Positions 1,772 through 16,934 of a stretch of DNA of 20,073 nucleotides are shown here, one piece after another. The number at the start of each line of letters is the position of its first letter. Within the stretch, counting starts at the first letter, position 1. Under the pieces are notes generated by a model that saw only the letters and a list, made by a program, of their open reading frames with translations, did no database searches and was not told the DNA's origin. This DNA comes from a virus: positions 1 through 20,073 of the IMG/VR virus record IMGVR_UViG_3300046820_000882; one strand, 5' to 3'. Made by a program: the position numbers and the translations under genes.

Positions 1772-3337
1772 TTAGTTCCAAGTATTGTCGTACGCAATCC
1801 TCTTCCAAACTCCATCGCCAGCACAAACATAGAAGTAATCATTGTCAATAGCAAACTCTCCTTTAATACCTGTTGCATCTGGTGCTGTAGGAGGAGTAGT
1901 TCTATACATGAACGCTGTGTTTTGTACTGAATTATCTGGGAATAATATAGTGCCGTTAGCTCTAAAATCCCACTCTGACTCATTGACTAAAATTGATACT
2001 GTATTATTAGATACTGATACTGATCTTGTTTGTGTGTTATTGGCCCAGCGTAATGATACACCCGTATTTGATCTAGTAGATATTGATGTAGTATTAATAG
2101 TAGTATTAACAGTAGTGTTGCCAATAGAAATAGCAACATCGGTACTTGGAACTACAATAGTGTTTGCTGGGAAGGTTGTTGTACCCGATCTATCAAACTT
2201 CCAATTGACAGTACCAAAGTCTGTAGACTTGACATTAATGTAAGCACTATTATTAGTTCTAACACCTACTGTGCTTGAATGGAATGCACCATCTAAATCT
2301 TCTGCTTTGATCTCAACAACTCCACCAGAGAATAGTTCAACTGTTGTGTTGGTTATTGATTGAAGGTGGTTGTTAGTACCAGGGAGGTATATATCACCAG
2401 GTACAGTAACTCTACCATCAGCTTCTGATATACTAACAATAAATCCATTGCTTTCTAGTTGACTTGCAGACCCTACATTTGCAGCTGATACGTTAGCATT
2501 AAGGAAACCAGTAGCATTGATTGTAAGTTGATTACCTACCTTAATGATACCAGCAGACGTCGTATTTGCAATTCTGATGTTAGCACTCAGCTGGTACGTC
2601 TCATCATCCATATGAAGCTGATCACCAACAAATATAATACCTGGAGATGTTGTATTAGCAAAGTTGGTATTAACGTTGAGTACTCCAAGCTCATTGATAG
2701 CCATGGTATTACCAGCTATAATCATACCTGCTGAGGTTACATTTGCAATTGGTAATACTGCACTCAAATGACCGCTGGTATTGATACTTAAATTATTACC
2801 AACCCTAACTACACCTGCTGATGTAGTGTTAGCCTGATTAATGTTAGCACTCAAAAATCCAGTGGCATTTATTGACAACTGATTACCAACACCAACTTTA
2901 CCCAATATTGTGCTGTTAGCAATGAATACATTGGCACTTAAAAAGCCGGTTGAATTAATAGTAAGATTATTACCAACTGCAACGATACCAGCTGTAGAGT
3001 TTGATGCAGTAACGATGTTAGCAACTAAGAAACCATTTTGGTCAATAGCTAACTGACTTCCAATCTTAACAGTACCAAATGATGTTGTGTTAGCTGTTCT
3101 GATATTAGCAGTAAGAAGACCATCGACGGTGACAGCAAGCTGACTTCCAATCTTAACAATACCTGCATATGTTGTGTTAGCATAGTCAGGAAAGGTAACC
3201 GTATCTCTAAACGTACTAACAGTCAACTTCCTTGTTGTCAACGTACCTGCAACGTTAGCAACAAGGATGAAGAAGTCACCGTTGTTTATAGTATTAGCGG
3301 TTGTTAACTCGCTGATCTTCTTAGCTCGATTGCTCAT
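1772..3337 (-). CDS. Repetitive tail-fibre or virion-surface protein
   Basis: This 521-aa protein is rich in Asn, Thr, Ser, Ala, Gly and Val. Residues 1-52 form a unique head with a typical adaptor sequence (KISELTTANTINNGDFFILV). Residues 53-285 are eight tandem units of 29 residues (the seventh has 30), consensus ANTTSAGIVKVGNQLSINATGFLSANI. Residues about 290-475 look like beta-structured fibre. The tail (about 483-521) has PPTAPDATGIKGEFAIDNDY and CAGDGVWKRIAYDNTW, a terminal domain I know from many marine phage fibre and structural proteins. The repeats suggest a trimeric beta-rich shaft, and the protein may help recognise the host. No enzymatic motif is seen. The start lies 6 nt after the preceding stop, without an obvious Shine-Dalgarno site, so coupled translation is likely. 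Confidence 0.8.
   Translation of the reverse strand: MSNRAKKISELTTANTINNGDFFILVANVAGTLTTRKLTVSTFRDTVTFPDYANTTYAGIVKIGSQLAVTVDGLLTANIRTANTTSFGTVKIGSQLAIDQNGFLVANIVTASNSTAGIVAVGNNLTINSTGFLSANVFIANSTILGKVGVGNQLSINATGFLSANINQANTTSAGVVRVGNNLSINTSGHLSAVLPIANVTSAGMIIAGNTMAINELGVLNVNTNFANTTSPGIIFVGDQLHMDDETYQLSANIRIANTTSAGIIKVGNQLTINATGFLNANVSAANVGSASQLESNGFIVSISEADGRVTVPGDIYLPGTNNHLQSITNTTVELFSGGVVEIKAEDLDGAFHSSTVGVRTNNSAYINVKSTDFGTVNWKFDRSGTTTFPANTIVVPSTDVAISIGNTTVNTTINTTSISTRSNTGVSLRWANNTQTRSVSVSNNTVSILVNESEWDFRANGTILFPDNSVQNTAFMYRTTPPTAPDATGIKGEFAIDNDYFYVCAGDGVWKRIAYDNTWN
2483..3181 (-). repeat. Eight tandem 87-90 bp coding repeats in the fibre-like gene
   Basis: Each unit encodes 29 residues beginning ANTTS (one unit has an extra codon and reads HMDDETYQLSANI). 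The units have drifted at synonymous and non-synonymous positions, so the repeat is far clearer in protein than in DNA. Units 4, 5 and 8 are closest to one another. Confidence 0.85.
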
Positions 3338-4678: not shown

Positions 4679-7431
4679 TAGTAATCCGTCCCTACCATAC
4701 CTTGTCCTTGATAGCTAGTAGCTAGCGCTGGTTTCTTTTGCGCAGCTGCTTTTCTTGCCTTCTCTTCTGGAGACTCCACTGGCTGAGGAGCTGGTACTGA
4801 TGAAGCCTGTCTAGTTACAGGAGCATTACCACTACCACTTGGGTTAGCTGCTAATTGTTTGTTCTTGTAATCATAGTTGCCAACAGTCTTGTCGCCTTGT
4901 GGATATGCTTGATCCTGCTTGCTTACTACTCTGGCAGCAGGAGCATTGCCTGCCATATTTTGCTTAGCAGCTGCATCAGCTGATGGTGTACCAGCTACTG
5001 GTTTACCACCTGCCTCTTGTCTAGCCTGAGCAATAGTCTTACCACCACCACCTGGCATTGGAGCAGCTACACCAGCTGCACCTGCTGCTTGTTCTCTTGC
5101 ACGGGCATTAGATTTGAAACTAGATATTCTCTGATTTGGTTGTGTGTAGCCAGCTTCCTTGGCACCATCAGAAGTACTTACTACTCTTGCTGCTGGAGCA
5201 TTGGCTGCAATACCTTGCTTAGCATCTCTAGGAGTATTGCTATATGACATCTGTGATGTACCAATAGAACCACCTGAAATAGCATCCATAGCATCGGATT
5301 TAGGAGCTGCTGGTTTTGGAGTAGCTGCTGCTTGTGTCGTAGAAGACCCACCAGTAAGTGCATCAGCACCTGCTACATTCGTTGCTTGCCCTTGAATACC
5401 AACAGCATTTCTAACACCTGGCTCAAATGTTTTTGCTGGTTCAGCAGCAGAAGCAGCTGGCTTAGACGTAGAAGATGCTTGATTAGTATCTTGCTTCTGA
5501 TCCTCATCGCTACTCACATTAAAGCCCTTACCTTCTGCATTACGTTGGCGCATCTTCGCTAATGCTTTTTCTGTTCTAGCATCATTCTCTGCTCTATCTG
5601 TTGCAGCATCTTCACGCATAGTTTTCTTACGCTTGGAGTGCATATGCATTTCGGAAACAAGAATCTCTAGGTCGCTAGTAGGTACGTACTTCTCAATACC
5701 GTGCTCAAACATAACATCATACCAAGCAATATAACCATCGTGATCTGGTTCAGCGTGCTGAGTAGTAACTGTACGGCCTTCACCAAACGATTCACTCTTT
5801 ACGTGAATAGCACATTGATGCTCGTAGCTGTTGCCTGGAGTGTCTTTATTCTCTTTAACAGATGTTTTCTTCTTGTTGTAGAGACCAAGCTTCATTTTCA
5901 TCTTGGAAGACATCTCTTGAATATTATCTTCTTCAACATCCATTGATTCTTTTTGTGTTGATTGAGATTTCTTACCAGACTTCTTACTATCAACAGGAGT
6001 GTATAATGGCTTACCTACACCTCTGTAACCTTCATCAGGAGAAGGAACTTCATTGGTACCTGGACGAGGAGCATCATCAACATACTTACCATTTCTCATG
6101 GTACCTTCTTCAACCTTCTTTGGTTTAATAACACCACGAGCAACTAATACATCACCATGAGTGATACGTTTTGGATCTCCGTAGTGAGCAGCAAGATCTT
6201 GCTCTTTATCAGTACGAGGAGTTGAGCTTTCTTTCTTCTTCATTACTTCCATGATATCAGCAACTAGATCACGTGATACGCCAAATGTCTTATTAACGTA
6301 AGCTTCTTTTGCAGTTACCTTACCGTTAACATCACCCTTGCCTCTGATCTTATTGACGAAATCACCAATCGAAGCATATGAACGATTTTCTGTATCTGGA
6401 CCACCCATAACACCTTTTTGACGAACATATGTTCTACCATCTGCATCTGTTCTAGTATTACCCTTACCGTATTTGTCATCAAGTTCTTTGTCAGCAGGAC
6501 GACCAGTGCTGTAGTCTTTATCTGAAGCTGCTGGCTTTTCTGTCTTTGATGCTTCTTTTGGTGCTTCTGGCTCTTCTTGTTTACCTTGTGGAGTAGTAGC
6601 TGACTTTAGACCGACTGGAGTCTTATCTTCATCATCATTACCCATCATGTTATCTAAATTCTTTCTTGCTCGATCCAAGTTCTTCTGTATAGTGTCAGCT
6701 GGGAGAATGGATGCTCTCTTTTGCATTGTAGGAACTTTAGATCCTCCGGAAAACACGTTATCTGTTGGATCTGCTTTTGGAGTCTCTACTGCTTTTGGAG
6801 TATCTACTGCTTTTGTTTCTGTTTCTTTACCCTGAGCTTTTGCTAAAGATGAAGCATCAGTAGCTGCTGGCTTTGGAGCATCATTCGATGTAGGAGCAGC
6901 AGCTGGAGTTTCTGGTTTCTTAACCGTAGTAGCAGCTGCAGCAGCAGGTGCTTTAAGTGCTTTAGAAGTACCAGGTTTTGATATCTGAGCTGCATCTGTC
7001 TTATTTTTACCAGGAGCTGGATCATATGAACCAGGACCTGCTCTACCAGAAGGTTGGTTGACACCAGTAGCCTGTTGCTTAGCAACCATCTCTCTATTCT
7101 TTGCAATTACAGGATTCAATGTCCTTGGATTGCCCCATGTACCTGGTTTAGCTGCGTCACCAGAATCACTAGCTTTTGGAGCTGGTACTGTAGCTGCACT
7201 TGCTTTGCTAGAGTCACCTTTAAAGAAGTCCTTGATAGCTTGACCTCTTTCTTGAGATTTAGCAGCAGGAGATCCAGGAGCTGGTTGCTTAGCAGCACTA
7301 GAAGCAGCAGGTTTAGGAGCAGCAGGTTTAGGAGCTACTGCAGGCTGTGTTTTATTTTTAGCCTGAGCTTGAGCAGCTCCTCCACTACCACCTTCCATGA
7401 TGTTCTTGATTGATTCATAAAGTGACTTCAT
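4678..7431 (-). CDS. Large low-complexity putative internal head protein
   Basis: This 917-aa protein begins MKSLYESIKNIME followed by Gly14, consistent with a capsid-targeting leader and an I-x-E cleavage site. Most of it (15-300, 610-917) is disordered and rich in Ala, Pro, Lys, Ser and Gln. Two more ordered islands stand out: about 305-440, and about 500-605 with MSSKMKMKLGLYNKKK, CAIHVKSESFGEG and YDVMFEHGIEKYVPTSDLEI. The second island resembles a domain seen in cyanophage and marine phage unknowns. A motif NAPxxRxxS occurs three times (744-752, 829-837, 869-877). The start has an AAGGA site 9 nt upstream. No enzymatic motif is seen. A precursor cut into several internal peptides is possible but unproven. 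Confidence 0.65.
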   Translation of the reverse strand: MKSLYESIKNIMEGGSGGAAQAQAKNKTQPAVAPKPAAPKPAASSAAKQPAPGSPAAKSQERGQAIKDFFKGDSSKASAATVPAPKASDSGDAAKPGTWGNPRTLNPVIAKNREMVAKQQATGVNQPSGRAGPGSYDPAPGKNKTDAAQISKPGTSKALKAPAAAAATTVKKPETPAAAPTSNDAPKPAATDASSLAKAQGKETETKAVDTPKAVETPKADPTDNVFSGGSKVPTMQKRASILPADTIQKNLDRARKNLDNMMGNDDEDKTPVGLKSATTPQGKQEEPEAPKEASKTEKPAASDKDYSTGRPADKELDDKYGKGNTRTDADGRTYVRQKGVMGGPDTENRSYASIGDFVNKIRGKGDVNGKVTAKEAYVNKTFGVSRDLVADIMEVMKKKESSTPRTDKEQDLAAHYGDPKRITHGDVLVARGVIKPKKVEEGTMRNGKYVDDAPRPGTNEVPSPDEGYRGVGKPLYTPVDSKKSGKKSQSTQKESMDVEEDNIQEMSSKMKMKLGLYNKKKTSVKENKDTPGNSYEHQCAIHVKSESFGEGRTVTTQHAEPDHDGYIAWYDVMFEHGIEKYVPTSDLEILVSEMHMHSKRKKTMREDAATDRAENDARTEKALAKMRQRNAEGKGFNVSSDEDQKQDTNQASSTSKPAASAAEPAKTFEPGVRNAVGIQGQATNVAGADALTGGSSTTQAAATPKPAAPKSDAMDAISGGSIGTSQMSYSNTPRDAKQGIAANAPAARVVSTSDGAKEAGYTQPNQRISSFKSNARAREQAAGAAGVAAPMPGGGGKTIAQARQEAGGKPVAGTPSADAAAKQNMAGNAPAARVVSKQDQAYPQGDKTVGNYDYKNKQLAANPSGSGNAPVTRQASSVPAPQPVESPEEKARKAAAQKKPALATSYQGQGMVGTDY

Positions 7432-11352: not shown

Positions 11353-11360
11353 TATTTATA
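11353..11360 (-). promoter_or_regulatory. T4-type late promoter (TATAAATA)
   Basis: A perfect TATAAATA octamer on the minus strand lies in the 54-nt gap between the FkbM methyltransferase stop and the ATG at 11308, about 45 nt before that ATG. In T4 this element alone directs sigma-gp55/clamp-dependent late transcription. It would start a second late transcript covering the 715-aa protein and the genes down to at least 3905. The leader also contains a GC-rich stretch (CCCGGCAG...CTGCGG) able to form only a bulged 6-bp stem. Confidence 0.75.
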
Positions 11361-11362
11361 AA

Positions 11363-11998
11363 TTATTTTACTGCAAACAGCTTGTCGGCATGGCCAAAAT
11401 GTCCATCAATCCTTTTATAGCCGAGTGGAGATAATAACATATTTATCTCTTCGTTTACTGTCTCAAGTGTAATTACCGGTAGAAACTTTGCTATAGTTTC
11501 CATAGCTCCTGCAATTACATTTGGTTCATATCCTTCGCAATCCAGACTAATATAGTCACATTTATCAAGTGCCAGCTGATCAATAGTAAATGTTGGTATA
11601 AATGTATCACCTATATCAGATACTTTATGTCCACCTACATTGGTCATTGATACTCTCTGCATACGCACGAGCTTATTAGTCTCACCAAGCGCTGCATTCA
11701 TTTTATAGATATTGTCTCTTTGACAATTGTAAGATAGGCAGTGGAAGTTTAGAGGATCTGGTTCGAATGTGTATACTCGTCTAAACATATCAGAAAGGAG
11801 TCTTGGATACATTCCACAATTACCACCAGCCTGAACAACCACGTCAAAGTTTTTGACATGATCAAGTATACCCCTCTTCAATGGTCCCCAGTCTGATTTA
11901 GGACCATCAAAAGCACCATTATCTTCTGTTACCCATAACCAACTAGAGACTTCCTCTACACTATTATTTCTAATGGATACTAATTCACTATAATCCAC
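11363..11998 (-). CDS. FkbM-family SAM-dependent methyltransferase
   Basis: This 211-aa protein has a Rossmann-type SAM-binding motif VVVQAGGNCGMYPRLLSDMF (about 54-73), an acidic strand end YTFEPDPLNFHCL, and the later DYISLDCEGYEPNVIAGA with LPVITLETVNEE. That set is typical of FkbM-type O-methyltransferases, which marine phages often carry and whose substrates are mostly sugars or other small molecules. The start is GTG (11998-11996), overlapping the TAG of the preceding gene, with GGGAG 8 nt upstream. No internal ATG would preserve the fold. Unlike most neighbours it has no capsid-targeting-like leader, so it probably acts in the infected cell, possibly on glycan or a modified nucleotide. 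Substrate is unknown. Confidence 0.85.
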   Translation of the reverse strand: MDYSELVSIRNNSVEEVSSWLWVTEDNGAFDGPKSDWGPLKRGILDHVKNFDVVVQAGGNCGMYPRLLSDMFRRVYTFEPDPLNFHCLSYNCQRDNIYKMNAALGETNKLVRMQRVSMTNVGGHKVSDIGDTFIPTFTIDQLALDKCDYISLDCEGYEPNVIAGAMETIAKFLPVITLETVNEEINMLLSPLGYKRIDGHFGHADKLFAVK

Positions 11999-12606
11999 TA
12001 GTCAACTCCCATTCCAGATCTAACATCTTTATATATTTCTCTTGAATGTGATTCATTCTTTTTAATCTTGCTTGGAAGACCAGCTTTGAATTTACCGTAG
12101 TTGCCACTAGATGCATGGTTACGCATATCGGTACCACTTACACCTGCTTTACGCTCACCAGTGTTTGCTACGGATATAGAATCAAAATGATACTCACCGT
12201 GTGGCTTACCCTTCACTCCATTATACTTGTGGAGTAAAGTCTTATACTCTTCTGCTCTATCACTACCACCAGCGATAACTAAATGCTTAGCACCAGTCTT
12301 AGCAATCTCTGCTGCATGATGCATGATAGTGGGGTGTGCTTTAGAAGCTGTAGAGATGGTTGTATTATCAAGATGACCAAAAGCACGTTGTAGATGCTTT
12401 TGCTTTTGTTCTGGAGATAGTGGGTTCTTCTTTGCATCATGAGATCCACTTGCTACTACGTGAAGGTGAGCGTCATGCTTGGTTGCAAGATCGTGAGCTG
12501 CGCTTACATTCTCTTCATGGCCACTAGTAATAGGGTTCATTCTACCAAATAGTAGAACAGCGGACTTAGCCTTTTCTTCTAATAGAAAACTTCCGAATGA
12601 TTTCAT
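11998..12606 (-). CDS. Cytidylyltransferase-like nucleotidyltransferase (NMNAT-like) with capsid-targeting-like leader
   Basis: This 202-aa protein opens MKSFGSFLLE followed by Glu11, then enters an HxGH-superfamily nucleotidyltransferase. LLFGRMNPITSGHEENV (18-34) corresponds to the GRFNPxHxGH signature with T27-S-G-H30. AGGSDR (112-117) and VSGTDMRNH (156-164) correspond to the later substrate loop and the ISSTxxR-like nucleotide-binding motif. The family includes NMN adenylyltransferases, pantetheine-phosphate adenylyltransferases and glycerol- or choline-phosphate cytidylyltransferases. The overall pattern looks nearest to phage NMNAT-like proteins, but the substrate cannot be fixed. The first His of HxGH is Thr here, as in some relatives. 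It overlaps the HAD phosphatase gene by ATGA, suggesting coupled synthesis and perhaps a shared pathway. Confidence 0.8.
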   Translation of the reverse strand: MKSFGSFLLEEKAKSAVLLFGRMNPITSGHEENVSAAHDLATKHDAHLHVVASGSHDAKKNPLSPEQKQKHLQRAFGHLDNTTISTASKAHPTIMHHAAEIAKTGAKHLVIAGGSDRAEEYKTLLHKYNGVKGKPHGEYHFDSISVANTGERKAGVSGTDMRNHASSGNYGKFKAGLPSKIKKNESHSREIYKDVRSGMGVD

Positions 12607-13214
12607 TTGCTTGTCGTTTTCGATATTCCATCACCATCAACATGGTGTGCATGGAATGTTGTATTTGGATGGTGATCCTTCAATCCCAAAAAGGAGTGTA
12701 GGTTTGTTTTACTATCATCGTACATATGAACATCGTTATACTTATGCTTGGCAACATAGCCATGAATCACTTTAGCTTTCTTATCAGCTGGTAAACTATC
12801 TTGATTAATGTTGCCAGCTCTGATCACATGGATGTTTTTCATATTGATACCATGCTTCTTGAATGTGTGTAAGAATTTATTCTTATCATCGAAGTTAGCA
12901 CGAGCAGTATTAAAGATGACATGGTTGTGAGGGTTAGCAGATACTCTCTTTAGGTGGTTAACCATGTTAGGCATCGGCTTTGATTCTTTATTAAACTTCT
13001 CAGCATTTCTAAATTCACCAAAGTCATAGCTATGGCCTTTTGGTAACTTGTGATTATTAAACTCTTGATTACTAAGAGTCTTAACTACTTTACCATGTGG
13101 ATCTTTAACATGGATCTGAGCTGTGGTATGCATTAGTGTATCATCAATATCAAACACATGAAGAGACTTTTTCTGTGTAACACCTTCTGTGATGAATTCT
13201 TTAAAGCTAATCAT
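12603..13214 (-). CDS. HAD-superfamily phosphatase with capsid-targeting-like leader
   Basis: This 203-aa protein begins MISFKEFITE followed by Gly11, an excellent match to a capsid-targeting leader cut after I-x-E. The HAD core follows directly. Motif I is FDIDDTLM (nucleophile Asp22, acid/base Asp24, Thr26), motif II is FNTAR (Thr103), motif III is a Lys around 145-148, and motif IV is MYDDSKTN (Asp166, Asp167). All catalytic positions appear present. Phage proteins of this type resemble the 3'-phosphatase half of T4 polynucleotide kinase, but there is no kinase P-loop here, so the substrate (nucleic-acid end, nucleotide or other phosphate ester) is open. Its gene is tightly coupled to a nucleotidyltransferase and a ligase-like gene, which makes a nucleic-acid end-processing role attractive. 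Confidence 0.8.
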   Translation of the reverse strand: MISFKEFITEGVTQKKSLHVFDIDDTLMHTTAQIHVKDPHGKVVKTLSNQEFNNHKLPKGHSYDFGEFRNAEKFNKESKPMPNMVNHLKRVSANPHNHVIFNTARANFDDKNKFLHTFKKHGINMKNIHVIRAGNINQDSLPADKKAKVIHGYVAKHKYNDVHMYDDSKTNLHSFLGLKDHHPNTTFHAHHVDGDGISKTTSK

Positions 13215-14404
13215 TATTGTCTCGCTGCAAAGTTTTGTCTACTGAATTCTGCTCTATCAACAACCTTTGTTGGTCTATTATTTACCACAGCAACATATCC
13301 CTCTGGTTTAGAAGGCTGGCCATTGATTGTGGTTGTAAACTTAGGACTAACCGCCATAGCATGATTCTGGATATCTTTAGCCTGCTGTAGGTGATGATGA
13401 ATTTGAAATACTTTATCGATAGTATCAGAGTGTGCTCTAACTGTACCAAGCTGGGTATTCATTGCCTGAGTCTTACGATCAATAGCTCCTTGGGTCTTTA
13501 CCTTGGCTATTTCTTTTTGATGTTGACTCTGTACATGATCATACAAATCAGTGGCATTAGGAGTAGTGCCTTCTCTAACTGTCTTATTAATATAGGTCTT
13601 GATATGATCTAAGTGAGGTTCCACCTTCTTATAATCTTCTGGCTTCATACTTCTATGAAGCTCATCTGCCTGAGCCATGTGTTCTTGAAAGTCTGCTTGA
13701 CGAGCAGGATTATAATCTGCCTTAGTTGAATCAAATTTATTATTAATTACATGCACATCTGGATGTTCATTAAAGTGAGAAAGATCTGGATCGTAATCTG
13801 CTTTCATTGATTCAAAGTTACCACCCTTATATCCTGTATGAACTGCAATACCAAATTGCGACTGAGCTACTTTCTGACCTTCTTCTGAATTAGCAGGTGC
13901 ATGATACTCGACTAGATTTGGTTTAAAGCTGTGGACTTTACCATTAGTGGTTACATCACCATGTAGGTTTGTTTCAGAGTTGATACCAGAATGCATGACA
14001 TCTCCCTGAAATATTCCTGTCTTAGGAGTTACCTTTGGAAGATGGAATAATGCAAGATTCAACTTATTGACAAGACCTGGAGCATGGCCATGATTCTTTT
14101 GAACATCGTCATAATCATAATTCAACTTAGGCTCTTTATTGAAAGCTGATTTAGTAGCAACAAAGAACTGACCTGTAGCTGGATGATGACCAAATACAAT
14201 AGAAGGACTTCCATCCATCTTCTCATATAAAGCTGCACCACCCTTTTGACCTGTCAGTGTTTTGTGTACTGCGTTAAGTGTATTCTTGGCATGCTGATAT
14301 CCTTCAGCACCAGCATTAAGTACATGGTCTTCGGCATGCTCAAGATGAGTCAGCTTTTCTTCATTGGCAGCTGATTCTCTTAACAAAGTAAATATGTGAC
14401 GCAT
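13214..14404 (-). CDS. Ligase-like nucleotidyltransferase with KxDGS motif (DUF6267-type)
   Basis: This 396-aa protein begins MRHIFTLLRE followed by Ser11, fitting a capsid-targeting leader with an L-x-E site. HLEHAEDHVLNAGAEG (20-35) and YEKMDGSPSIVFG (60-72) match a phage family I recall as DUF6267. K62-M-D-G-S66 is motif I of covalent nucleotidyltransferases (DNA/RNA ligases, capping enzymes), where Lys takes the AMP or GMP. FFVATKSAFNKEPKLNYD and GIFQGDVMHSG (about 154-164) are further family motifs. The second half is helical, His- and Gln-rich, without an obvious OB-fold signature. Overlap with the HAD gene is TAATG. Actual ligase activity is not established for this family to my knowledge. 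Confidence 0.8.
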   Translation of the reverse strand: MRHIFTLLRESAANEEKLTHLEHAEDHVLNAGAEGYQHAKNTLNAVHKTLTGQKGGAALYEKMDGSPSIVFGHHPATGQFFVATKSAFNKEPKLNYDYDDVQKNHGHAPGLVNKLNLALFHLPKVTPKTGIFQGDVMHSGINSETNLHGDVTTNGKVHSFKPNLVEYHAPANSEEGQKVAQSQFGIAVHTGYKGGNFESMKADYDPDLSHFNEHPDVHVINNKFDSTKADYNPARQADFQEHMAQADELHRSMKPEDYKKVEPHLDHIKTYINKTVREGTTPNATDLYDHVQSQHQKEIAKVKTQGAIDRKTQAMNTQLGTVRAHSDTIDKVFQIHHHLQQAKDIQNHAMAVSPKFTTTINGQPSKPEGYVAVVNNRPTKVVDRAEFSRQNFAARQ

Positions 14405-14405
14405 T

Positions 14406-15425
14406 TTAATGTCCTAGTGTTTTCTTTAGCTTTTGTGCACCCTCATCTGTACCGATGTTAGTATGCGACTGATCTAATTTTGTGAGAGAGAATTGCACAG
14501 TACGCTTGTCAGGATTATCAGTCTTCTGACGAGTACGGAAACGACCTTCACCATGCATTACTGGTAGTCCAAGTTTATGTGTATCACTATGCTCACTTGC
14601 ACCAGCTCTGTAAGTACCATGTGTATCTACATGAGCAACATCGACACCATGATCACGCATATAAGCATGAGCCGGTGATGCACTTGTGTGATCTGAATAG
14701 AATCCACCTTTGTTAGTTGTTCCAGATGGTTCAGTTTCATTTAGATGCTGTAATAGTGATTTTGTCTTACCATTTACAGTGACAGTAGCCTTCTCAACAT
14801 GGGCAGCATACTCAGGTCGTTTTGCACGTGCCTTATCATCGATATGCCACTGCCCTGTTTCAGGATGGCGAGAAAGAGTTATCTGACCAAAAGCTGTACT
14901 CTTGATATCAGACTTATGCTCGCCTTGTATTGCTCCCTTGGCCCCCTCTGTACCACCGATTCTCTTTTCTTTGATACCTCGTTTATCAATTAGATGGAAG
15001 TCATTATCGCCAGTAAAACCAGCACCACTACCTCTCATCAATCCATGCTTATTGAGGTGCTGAGCTAACTCACCTTCTCGTTCAAAGCCTTTATTCTTTC
15101 GGGCAGAAGATGATGGCTTTAGTAACTTGCTAGTTGGTATTACATGGTCGTGATCAGATCCCTGTGCTCGAACAACGGCATGGTGTACATCTTTACCAGA
15201 AGCACTCTGCTTCACCTGATGTCCAACAATCGTTACCTTCTCACCAGCTTTCAATGGTCCGTGCTCACTTGCCATCTCATGACTACCAACAGAATGCTTA
15301 GCACCACCTGGCAAATAAGGTGTTATGTATTGTTTAGTATGACGAGCAGCACTCATACCTGAAGCCTTCATGGTAGATGCCTGCATAGTCGCTTGTTCGA
15401 TAATATATCTTTTAAATGTTTTCAT
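14406..15425 (-). CDS. Putative PD-(D/E)XK-type nuclease with capsid-targeting-like leader
   Basis: This 339-aa protein begins MKTFKRYIIE followed by Gln11, very close to T4 MKTYQEFIAE. The N-terminal part (about 55-105) looks like a small beta domain (GEKVTIVGHQVKQSASGKDV, VIPTSKLLKP). Residues 113-185 carry a nuclease-like pattern: GFEREGELAQHLNKHG with Glu115/Glu117, GFTGDNDFHLID with Asp140/Asp142, GEHKSD with Glu169-x-Lys171, and AFGQITL with Gln181. This D...ExK...Q order is characteristic of PD-(D/E)XK endonucleases. The C-terminal half is His-rich and conserved-looking (HAYMRDHGVDVAHVDTHGTY, PVMHGEGRFRTRQ). The assignment is by motif only and could be wrong. The gene lies 4 nt downstream of the preceding stop. 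Confidence 0.6.
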   Translation of the reverse strand: MKTFKRYIIEQATMQASTMKASGMSAARHTKQYITPYLPGGAKHSVGSHEMASEHGPLKAGEKVTIVGHQVKQSASGKDVHHAVVRAQGSDHDHVIPTSKLLKPSSSARKNKGFEREGELAQHLNKHGLMRGSGAGFTGDNDFHLIDKRGIKEKRIGGTEGAKGAIQGEHKSDIKSTAFGQITLSRHPETGQWHIDDKARAKRPEYAAHVEKATVTVNGKTKSLLQHLNETEPSGTTNKGGFYSDHTSASPAHAYMRDHGVDVAHVDTHGTYRAGASEHSDTHKLGLPVMHGEGRFRTRQKTDNPDKRTVQFSLTKLDQSHTNIGTDEGAQKLKKTLGH

Positions 15426-15429
15426 ATTA

Positions 15430-15852
15430 TCACCAGTCGTTATCGTTTGGGTTGCGTTTTACAATATCAGGATTGACTTTCTTCCTAGCAGCATTGGCAG
15501 CATCAATCTCTTTACGAGCATTAGGATATTTGTTAAACTTTGGATCAACCTCAATATCATCATCCCATTCAGGACTCTTGCTCTTTGTTGTGGTTACAGT
15601 TCTAGAACTCTTGTCCGGTGACTCAATACGACTAACCTCGGTACGTGTACCTGGATCTTTCCCAGCATCCTCACCGCGCTTCTTTTTAGCAAGATATTCA
15701 GCACGACCTGGATTATCAACGCTTTTAGAAATAGTTACACCACCGCCTGACTCTTCGTCATCGGTGGTGGTTTTTGAACTTGAAAAAGAGGATGAGCGAG
15801 ATCTTTCCCACTCATGAAGAGATATAAAACTTGAGAATTTACGAACAGCCAT
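15430..15852 (-). CDS. Small hydrophilic putative head protein, first gene of the cargo block
   Basis: I chose the ATG at 15852 (140 aa). It has AGGAG 6 nt upstream and lies just downstream of a consensus late promoter, while the longer frame (to 15891) would begin upstream of that promoter and inside the ClpP gene. The N-terminus MAVRKFSSFISLHE resembles an extended capsid-targeting leader with L-H-E before Trp. The remainder is disordered and rich in Ser, Asp, Lys and Thr (SRSSSFSSSKTTTDDEES), with a conserved-looking C-terminus (EVDPKFNKYPNARKEIDAAN). No domain is recognised. Its start codon lies in the 3' arm of a hairpin with the Shine-Dalgarno site in the loop, so translation should depend on which promoter made the transcript. 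Confidence 0.65.
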   Translation of the reverse strand: MAVRKFSSFISLHEWERSRSSSFSSSKTTTDDEESGGGVTISKSVDNPGRAEYLAKKKRGEDAGKDPGTRTEVSRIESPDKSSRTVTTTKSKSPEWDDDIEVDPKFNKYPNARKEIDAANAARKKVNPDIVKRNPNDNDW

Positions 15853-15876
15853 AGTGTCTCCTAATATACTATGGCT
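15847..15876 (-). promoter_or_regulatory. Start-codon-sequestering hairpin
   Basis: Two perfect 9-nt arms (AGCCATAGT and ACTATGGCT) flank a 12-nt loop. In the mRNA the 3' arm contains the ATG at 15852 and the loop contains AGGAG. Read-through transcripts from upstream would contain both arms and could block initiation. Transcripts from the adjacent late promoter should start near 15870 and keep only about 3 nt of the 5' arm. The same arrangement is known for T4 e, soc and I-TevI. Confidence 0.7.
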
Positions 15877-15883
15877 ATTTATA
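15876..15883 (-). promoter_or_regulatory. T4-type late promoter (TATAAATA) heading the cargo block
   Basis: A perfect TATAAATA on the minus strand begins immediately after the TGA of the ClpP-like gene and ends at the first base of the hairpin. By T4 spacing (octamer at about -13 to -6) the start site would be close to 15870, an A on the transcribed strand. Confidence 0.8.
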
Positions 15884-16441
15884 TCAGCCAAATATTGCGT
15901 CAGCTACTCCCAAATCTACACATTCCTGCGCAGTTAACCAAACATCTGAAGGAGGAAGTAGCTTACGCTTAATCACTTTCTCATCCATAGAGCAGCTCTC
16001 TTTTACAATATCCAGCATACGCTGTTTAATGTACTTGGTCTCTTTCTCATATGCTTTGGCGTCATGCTCTTTGCCTTCATAATACGTAGAAAACTGATGG
16101 CACATCACACTTGTGTTTTTAGTAACTCTACGACGGCCTTTGGCACCAGTAATGAATATCAAGAATGCAGCACTCATTAGTGAGCCTACACCGATCGTTG
16201 TAACAGGTATCTTACTAGCCCTGATCATATCAATCAAACCAAATGCACTATAGAGATCACCGCCAGGACTGTTAATTACAAGAGTGAGCTCTTTACGCTT
16301 ACCCTCACAATTCTCAGCCATAATCCATCTAATACAATCACCTATGTTATCATCGTTAATTTCACCAGAGAGATAGAACGTGCCACTCTCATATAGTACC
16401 ATGTCGATACTATCAAAAACATTTGAAGCTTCGCTAGTCAT
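15884..16441 (-). CDS. ClpP-like serine protease
   Basis: I chose the ATG at 16441 (185 aa, MTSEASNVFDSIDMVLYESG), because AGGA lies 7 nt upstream and it begins after the preceding gene's stop. The longer frame to 16483 would overlap that gene. The ClpP/crotonase fold is clear: FYLSGEINDDN, LVINSPGGDLYSAFGLIDMI, GVGSLMSAAFLI, GAKGRRR and VMCHQFS. Aligning on GAKG places the triad at Ser90, His115 and Asp166 (SDVWLTAQECVDLGVAD), all present, so it should be active. Length is slightly below bacterial ClpP (about 195). Phage ClpP-like proteins act as head-maturation proteases in HK97-type phages or as host-type peptidases. Here the gene is directly upstream of the putative capsid-cargo block. 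Whether it needs a host ClpX/ClpA partner is unknown. Confidence 0.88.
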   Translation of the reverse strand: MTSEASNVFDSIDMVLYESGTFYLSGEINDDNIGDCIRWIMAENCEGKRKELTLVINSPGGDLYSAFGLIDMIRASKIPVTTIGVGSLMSAAFLIFITGAKGRRRVTKNTSVMCHQFSTYYEGKEHDAKAYEKETKYIKQRMLDIVKESCSMDEKVIKRKLLPPSDVWLTAQECVDLGVADAIFG

Positions 16442-16451
16442 AAAATTCCTA

Positions 16452-16934
16452 TCAAGGAGGGCAGTTAATATTCTTAGCGGCATCAGTCACAACTTTGTCA
16501 CTGCTGCCTTGTTTACGGAGATATGAAGCTTGTAGGTCATACGCTTCACGCTCTTTCTTGTACCAAACATCACAGGTTTTAGTACCACCCTGTCTTACAT
16601 ACTGAACATGATGCACCATCTCGTGGAAAAGAATAGATCTCCAAACAGGATGCTTAGCATCATAGTCTTCGTCAAAATAAATTGCACCGTCTTTATATAT
16701 GGCGGTTACTGTATCACACTTAGATGCACCTTCGCAGTATAATGCTTGCAGATCTTTCTCGTTAAGCGAATACATACGTGGCATAGGAACAGCACCTTCA
16801 TATTTCATCATCTTTCTAGCTTCTTCCAGCAACGACATCATCGCGGGGGAAGGAGTAATAGTATGCTGCGTCTTAGGAGCAGCAGCTGTTAGTGTTGATA
16901 TGCATAATAAAATAGTAACTAAAAGGCGTGTCAT
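16452..16934 (-). CDS. Exported HExxH zinc metalloprotease-like protein (possible DUF6647)
   Basis: I chose the ATG at 16934 (160 aa): a GGGAA-type site precedes it and a sigma70-like promoter lies between it and the end of the longer frame. Residues 1-19 (MTRLLVTILLCISTLTAAAP) form a typical signal peptide with cleavage near TAAA. The mature protein has HEMVHHVQY (His104, Glu105, His108), the zinc-binding HExxH motif, and a downstream acidic stretch KEREAYDLQASYL that can supply the third ligand. Cysteines at 67, 73, 121 and 158 suggest disulfides in the periplasm. The pattern resembles a family I recall as DUF6647. It may act on periplasmic or envelope proteins during infection. It is separate from the neighbouring SprT-like gene, which has no signal peptide. 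Confidence 0.8.
   Translation of the reverse strand: MTRLLVTILLCISTLTAAAPKTQHTITPSPAMMSLLEEARKMMKYEGAVPMPRMYSLNEKDLQALYCEGASKCDTVTAIYKDGAIYFDEDYDAKHPVWRSILFHEMVHHVQYVRQGGTKTCDVWYKKEREAYDLQASYLRKQGSSDKVVTDAAKNINCPP

Follow-up and report, generated by a model that had tools for sequence, protein, structure and literature searches.

In bacteriophage T4, the leaders of the genes e, soc, 49 and I-TevI hide the Shine-Dalgarno sequence (SD) and/or the AUG start codon inside an RNA helix, and late promoters immediately upstream of e and I-TevI give rise to RNA without the 5' part of this structure, as set out in the accounts cited here (PMC3014915, PMC2988022). Described cases of this lock comprise a lysis gene, a capsid decoration gene and genes for nucleases, homing endonucleases among them. 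We studied a junction of similar layout in an uncultured T4-like phage, using a virus record of 20,073 bases that was analysed as a whole (the window; Table 1), and propose with a probability of roughly 0.6 that it carries a T4-type translational lock, i.e., a further example of the known T4 trick and not another type of switch. Our best reading is that this lock confines a probably capsid-targeted operon to late RNA.

Table 1. Features at and around the junction of the ClpP-like protease gene and gene 1.
Feature	Position	Strand	Basis or remark
ClpP-like protease gene	15884..16483	minus	upstream of promoter
T4-type late promoter TATAAATA	15883-15876	minus	sequence; conserved at junction in relatives
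Hairpin 5' arm AGCCATAGT	15876-15868	minus	inverted-repeat coordinates
Hairpin loop ATATTAGGAGAC	15867-15856	minus	contains Shine-Dalgarno AGGAG 15862-15858
Hairpin 3' arm ACTATGGCT	15855-15847	minus	contains gene 1 ATG 15852-15850
Gene 1 (140 aa), N-terminus MAVRKFSSFISLHE	15430..15852	minus	no family match
10-bp intragenic hairpin, then CCTCTTTTTC	15792..15815	minus	starts 37 nt after A of gene 1 ATG
Genes 2-6, abutting or overlapping	11363..15425	minus	no exact TATAAATA until 11360
Second late promoter, before gene 7	11353..11360	minus	sequence

Anatomy of the junction and its late promoter

All recognisable genes of the window lie on the minus strand, from a UvsX-like recombinase and a DnaB-like helicase over small genes and the ClpP-like protease to the promoter and a mostly unassigned block, with close packing between the recombinase and the ClpP-like gene. 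No Rfam match and no tRNAs were found within the window. At the junction, the minus strand reads TGA (the ClpP-like stop), TATAAATA, GCCATAGT, ATATTAGGAGAC and ACTATGGCT, the last of which includes the ATG of gene 1. The first base of TATAAATA directly follows the ClpP-like stop codon (15886-15884), and its last base is the first of a perfect 9-bp inverted repeat with a 12-nt loop. These coordinates bear out the original prediction of a promoter abutting such a repeat, with AGGAG in the loop and the start codon in the 3' arm.

An exact TATAAATA occurs twice in the window compared to 1.36 expected occurrences, a count that is not significant on its own, and we call the promoter at 15883-15876 not because of this count but because T/CATAAATA is kept at the ClpP junction in all six distinct relatives. 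These were found through the ClpP-like gene as 11 loci with ClpP identities of 64-96%. The late sigma factor gp55 is encoded in five of six large related records (the exception being the 63-kb G002) and in four of eight further ones; its presence in the large records suggests that T4-type late transcription is likely in the related group, and the window itself is too short to show gp55 in its phage. The T4 late promoter box lies at -13 to -6 (PMC1524935), which puts the predicted late +1 of the window at 15870, so that late RNA would be without six of the nine bases of the 5' arm and positions 15876-15871 would be confined to RNA reading through from upstream. There is no exact TATAAATA between 15884 and 20073, the upstream end of the window, suggesting that RNA arriving from this side is probably early or middle. 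The gene order fits read-through into gene 1, in line with the earlier suggestion that such RNA comes from the replication and protease region.

A terminator scan also lists the site as an intrinsic terminator for plus-strand transcription, with 11 pairs and the tail ATTTATATCA, but the T run of this tail is poor and falls short of an unbroken U run, the plus strand has no assigned gene here, and the scan yields 7 such sites where 3.1 are expected, which makes this explanation hardly credible.

Predicted folding and comparison with T4 leaders

In a 49-nt read-through RNA, the arms are predicted to form a helix of 12 consecutive pairs (including G-U pairs) and three more at -15.6 kcal/mol, a stability reached by none of 200 dinucleotide shuffles, and the computed probability of the AUG being unpaired in the long RNA is ~0. 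RNA starting at the predicted +1 of 15870 retains -2.1 kcal/mol, a difference of -13.5 kcal/mol. The folds thus agree with what had been proposed for this site, namely that the full hairpin masks the ATG in read-through RNA and that a late start near 15870 removes the 5' arm.

The hairpin might be a product of chance that has no regulatory effect, at a late promoter that is genuine; a short spacer would then be complementary by accident to the common ATGGC start, and 41 of 206 leaders indeed begin with ATGGC. Yet the energy difference was matched by only 2 of 5000 shuffled leaders in which the promoter and the coding start were fixed and dinucleotides kept, and only 3 of all 1024 possible 5-nt spacers equal the observed lock, so that we regard chance as unlikely. 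The number of paired positions, a looser measure, was matched by 715 of 5000 shuffles and is a poor discriminator. The same calculation yielded differences of -10.5 for T4 e, -5.2 for soc, -11.5 for 49 and -11.6 for I-TevI; the difference of the window exceeds these four proven cases, which further argues against a chance repeat.

The window shares several features of a T4 lock, with a late promoter directly against the 5' arm, the AUG inside the helix of the long RNA and, as computed for a +1 at 15870, a late RNA that would be short of the 5' arm needed to fold. The closest geometry is that of the soc leader: its repeat is also perfect, the SD lies in the loop and the ATG in the 3' arm, and the 5' arm begins in the promoter spacer. 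There, however, just three bases of the arm precede the predicted +1, and the energy difference (-5.2) is smaller than the -13.5 of the window. T4 e resembles the window in the late promoter directly upstream, the helix in read-through RNA and the 5' strand missing from late RNA, as described in the account cited (PMC3014915), and differs in that its SD is in the stem, that it has two late promoters, and that it is a lysis gene with a lock proven by experiment. At I-TevI and 49, the 5' arm similarly follows directly after the promoter (there AATAAATA), but these genes encode homing or recombination nucleases and the SD, not the ATG, is in the predicted helix. In anatomy, energetics and comparison, the likeness to the logic of e, soc and I-TevI that had been noted for this site therefore fits.

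The same junction in relatives

The hairpin itself is private to the window, and its arms are not conserved at the ClpP junction, a point that favors the chance explanation. Four of the six distinct relatives (L001, L007, L008-L010 and L011) instead have a strong terminator (ACCCACTTCGGTGGGT and a T run) directly upstream of the promoter. In L007, this terminator is combined with an unrelated SD-hiding hairpin with different arms (difference -10.8), and L001 has a weaker SD-hiding hairpin that is also unrelated to that of the window (-7.7). L008 (-0.1) and L011 (-2.4) are without a lock, and both a terminator and a comparable lock are lacking in L002-L005 (-0.5) and L006 (-4.3). Of the set, the window has the strongest lock, with no terminator beside it, so that a terminator or a lock is found in five of seven distinct sequences with the window counted. 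Loss of arm complementarity in close relatives, named beforehand as an outcome that would speak against a timing switch, is thus partly what we observed: the promoter is kept in 6/6, and no such lock exists in L002-L005, L006, L008-L010 and L011. Taken as a whole, the original prediction of a timing switch is partly supported, in its anatomy, its energetics and its likeness to T4, and not in the conservation of the lock among close relatives.

The terminators of the relatives raise the alternative that the lock serves insulation and not timing, i.e., that it uncouples gene 1 from any upstream RNA, including late RNA, as the strong terminator does in those 4/6 relatives. However, the lack of an exact TATAAATA from the upstream end of the window to the junction promoter makes it more likely that the arriving RNA is early or middle, and we consider insulation improbable.

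In gene 2 and the ClpP-like gene, L001 matches the window at 96% identity; it is without gene 1 and has a terminator, an own promoter and an SD directly in front of gene 2. In the layout of the window, gene 2 appears to rely on gene 1, because the L001 version comes with its own promoter and SD and that of the window has no recognisable SD. Relative to L001, the stretch 15430-15883 of the window may record the gain or the loss of a gene, through which one barrier was exchanged for another.

In L011, a late promoter, a terminator and another late promoter follow each other in series at the ClpP junction (5236-5287). At 30 distant ClpP loci (L174-L203), no TATAAATA was seen by eye in the ~110 nt past the match, and the junction showed no DNA similarity to phage records.

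Start-codon hairpins at gp13 and in other leaders

A GCCATAG/CTATGGC lock is found at the neck gene gp13 in many uncultured T4-like phages. Scanning viral contigs for TATAAATAGCCATAG gave 110 stretches that reduce to 14 distinct leaders with SD and ORF, in nine of which CTATGGC, the exact partner, stands at the start codon. Such starts occur in only 2 of 206 nonredundant late-promoter leaders from other sources, neither with the arm, a difference (Fisher p 4e-11) that is overstated since seven of the nine are related gp13 genes, as judged by their N-terminus; the other two, L096 and L116, belong to other genes. Two genes of the gp13 type were matched to the head-tail adaptor Ad2. Like the window, these leaders combine TATAAATA with GCCATAG/CTATGGC and have the ATG in the 3' arm; as putative locks newly found here, they differ in the gene and in a longer loop region. 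The presence of the same design at gp13, L096 and L116 argues against a chance repeat in the window.

Among the best 80 of 571 gp13 relatives, a lock that reaches at least -5 kcal/mol in strength is present at 21 loci; 50 have the promoter without a lock and 9 have no promoter. At 19 of these 21 hairpin loci, an upstream ORF on the same strand has its end no more than 250 nt away, which would again fit insulation, as such upstream genes may be late. The gp13 locks include G-U variants as well as other arms and registers (L288, L256). In 15 chosen gp13 leaders, 90.3% of pair cells are kept compared to 37-52% when the arms are slid, and 7 of the 15 rows have G-U variants at one pair with the RNA pairing kept. 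Covariation is thin, given that 29 of 500 shuffles reach the score of these leaders; the retained pairing moderately supports RNA pairing at the gp13 locks.

The G-U variants also bear on the possibility that the inverted repeat is a DNA operator, occupied by a dimeric repressor that would cover the promoter. The repeat does overlap the promoter, and autorepression of I-TevI at its own late promoter is described in the account cited (PMC2988022). But the gp13 variants keep the RNA pair and spoil the DNA palindrome, which favors an RNA structure, and arms and registers differ in L288 and L256, as do the arms of L007 at the ClpP junction, so that an operator appears very improbable. The open-access T4 reviews and comparative papers searched, as far as their text was covered, mention no such lock, whether for gp13 or for the junction of ClpP and late genes, which does not prove its absence from the literature.

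Two side observations concern other leaders. In L116, a permuted tmRNA predicted by ARAGORN (2559-3220) spans ORF 2687-3016, which has the TATAAATA start-codon hairpin; this ORF shows a Cys/His pattern like that of an HNH nuclease by eye and no Pfam match above the cut-off. In L215 (G001), L222 (G002) and L224 (G004), a hairpin of high stability comes directly after another late promoter, away from the start codon; it has a CCTTCGGG-type loop and folds at ~-24 kcal/mol with the promoter and -13 to -14.5 in late RNA.

Complementarity to the ribosome site is not established as a general property of late-promoter spacers, since control octamers show a similar excess of weak pairing. A first test gave 14 of 246 leaders at -7 or better where 2.1 were expected, in a set that included loci fetched for the motif, and 6 of 206 compared to 0.9 expected remained upon their removal. 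With pairing to the SD or start required, 4 of 206 were found at -7 compared to 0.46 expected (1/500 permutations), one of them T4 e, and 12 of 206 at -4 compared to 5.0 (3/500 permutations). Behind control octamers, 9 of 112 reached -4 compared to 3.8 expected and none reached -7 (0.5 expected); weak spacer-start pairing is thus not specific to late promoters, as the chance explanation would have it. Leaving out the T4 and ClpP/gene-2 loci, we obtained 7 of 163 at -4 (3.2 expected; 18/500 permutations) and 2 of 163 at -7 (0.35 expected; 25/500 permutations). Strong locks are thus uncommon, though they may exceed expectation.

The gene block behind the promoter

No full-length relative of gene 1 was detected by DNA pattern and tblastn in viral contigs or by tblastn in phages, and the first genes of L002 and L006 resemble it by eye at the N-terminus only. 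Gene 2 starts 4 nt past the stop of gene 1 without a recognisable SD, so that coupling of its translation to gene 1 is plausible, and genes 2-6 are presumed to share the late transcript of gene 1. As genes 3 and 6 carry their own SD-like sequences, the lock may not reach them; the coupling that had been proposed for the genes behind gene 1 is thus plausible for gene 2 and may not extend to these two.

About ten ORFs in 15852-4678 (minus strand) start by eye with a short hydrophobic stretch that ends in E, among them MKTFKRYIIEQ, MISFKEFITEG, MKSFGSFLLEE and MLSFLEFITEA, and we take these starts to resemble the capsid-targeting sequence of T4 internal proteins. The operon behind the lock is probably capsid-targeted. 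Such a targeting sequence in T4 internal proteins is described in the source cited (PMC3012670).

The late block also includes a gene for a ferritin/Dps-like protein (8473-8027, minus strand; Pfam PF00210, phrog_3636). The leader of the second late promoter (11360-11309, minus strand) contains a 19-mer, GGCCTAGGTAAACCTGCGG, that is identical in three lineages with differing flanks (L217, L220, L174) and that may resemble helix 45 of 16S rRNA.

The hairpin inside gene 1 folds at -11.8 kcal/mol, and neither 300 synonymous recodings nor 316 other ORFs (within 110 nt of the start) contain one as stable. A role as strong terminator is rejected, as its U tract is weak and its tail begins with CCTC; by classical score it is presumably a poor terminator. 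It is possible that the hairpin acts as a translation-gated terminator. In such a two-step barrier, the hidden AUG would leave the RNA untranslated, the hairpin at 15815-15792 would terminate early polymerases before the six-gene operon, and late ribosomes would prevent termination, a scenario that we regard as doubtful. A comparable hairpin is missing from the first 300 nt in 12 of 13 hairpin-type gp13 genes, and L288 has one at +253.

Proposed mechanism and implications

For the T4-type lock that we favor, RNA that enters from the replication genes and continues beyond the ClpP-like gene would carry both arms and fold, which would enclose the gene 1 AUG in the helix and make for poor ribosome binding. 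Late in infection, a gp55-type polymerase would start at ~15870 and drop most of the 5' arm, so that gene 1 could be translated from RNA without a competing structure of similar strength, and gene 2 would probably be reached by coupling. Two further points speak against this lock. Once a ribosome has finished the ClpP-like gene, it would halt 8 nt short of the 5' arm, where it should interfere with the hairpin, and the SD is in the loop and not in the stem.

If this reading is true, a block of genes whose products probably go to the capsid joins those protected by the lock known from T4. The repeated occurrence of the design at gp13 in uncultured phages then suggests that phages have reinvented start-codon locks at late promoters. 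The spacer from TATAAATA to +1 would then hold information that is present in read-through RNA only, and locks could replace terminators as barriers between early and late gene blocks. Should the two-step barrier be true as well, the lock and a conditional terminator together would be an evolutionary replacement for the plain terminator that relatives have upstream of the same promoter.
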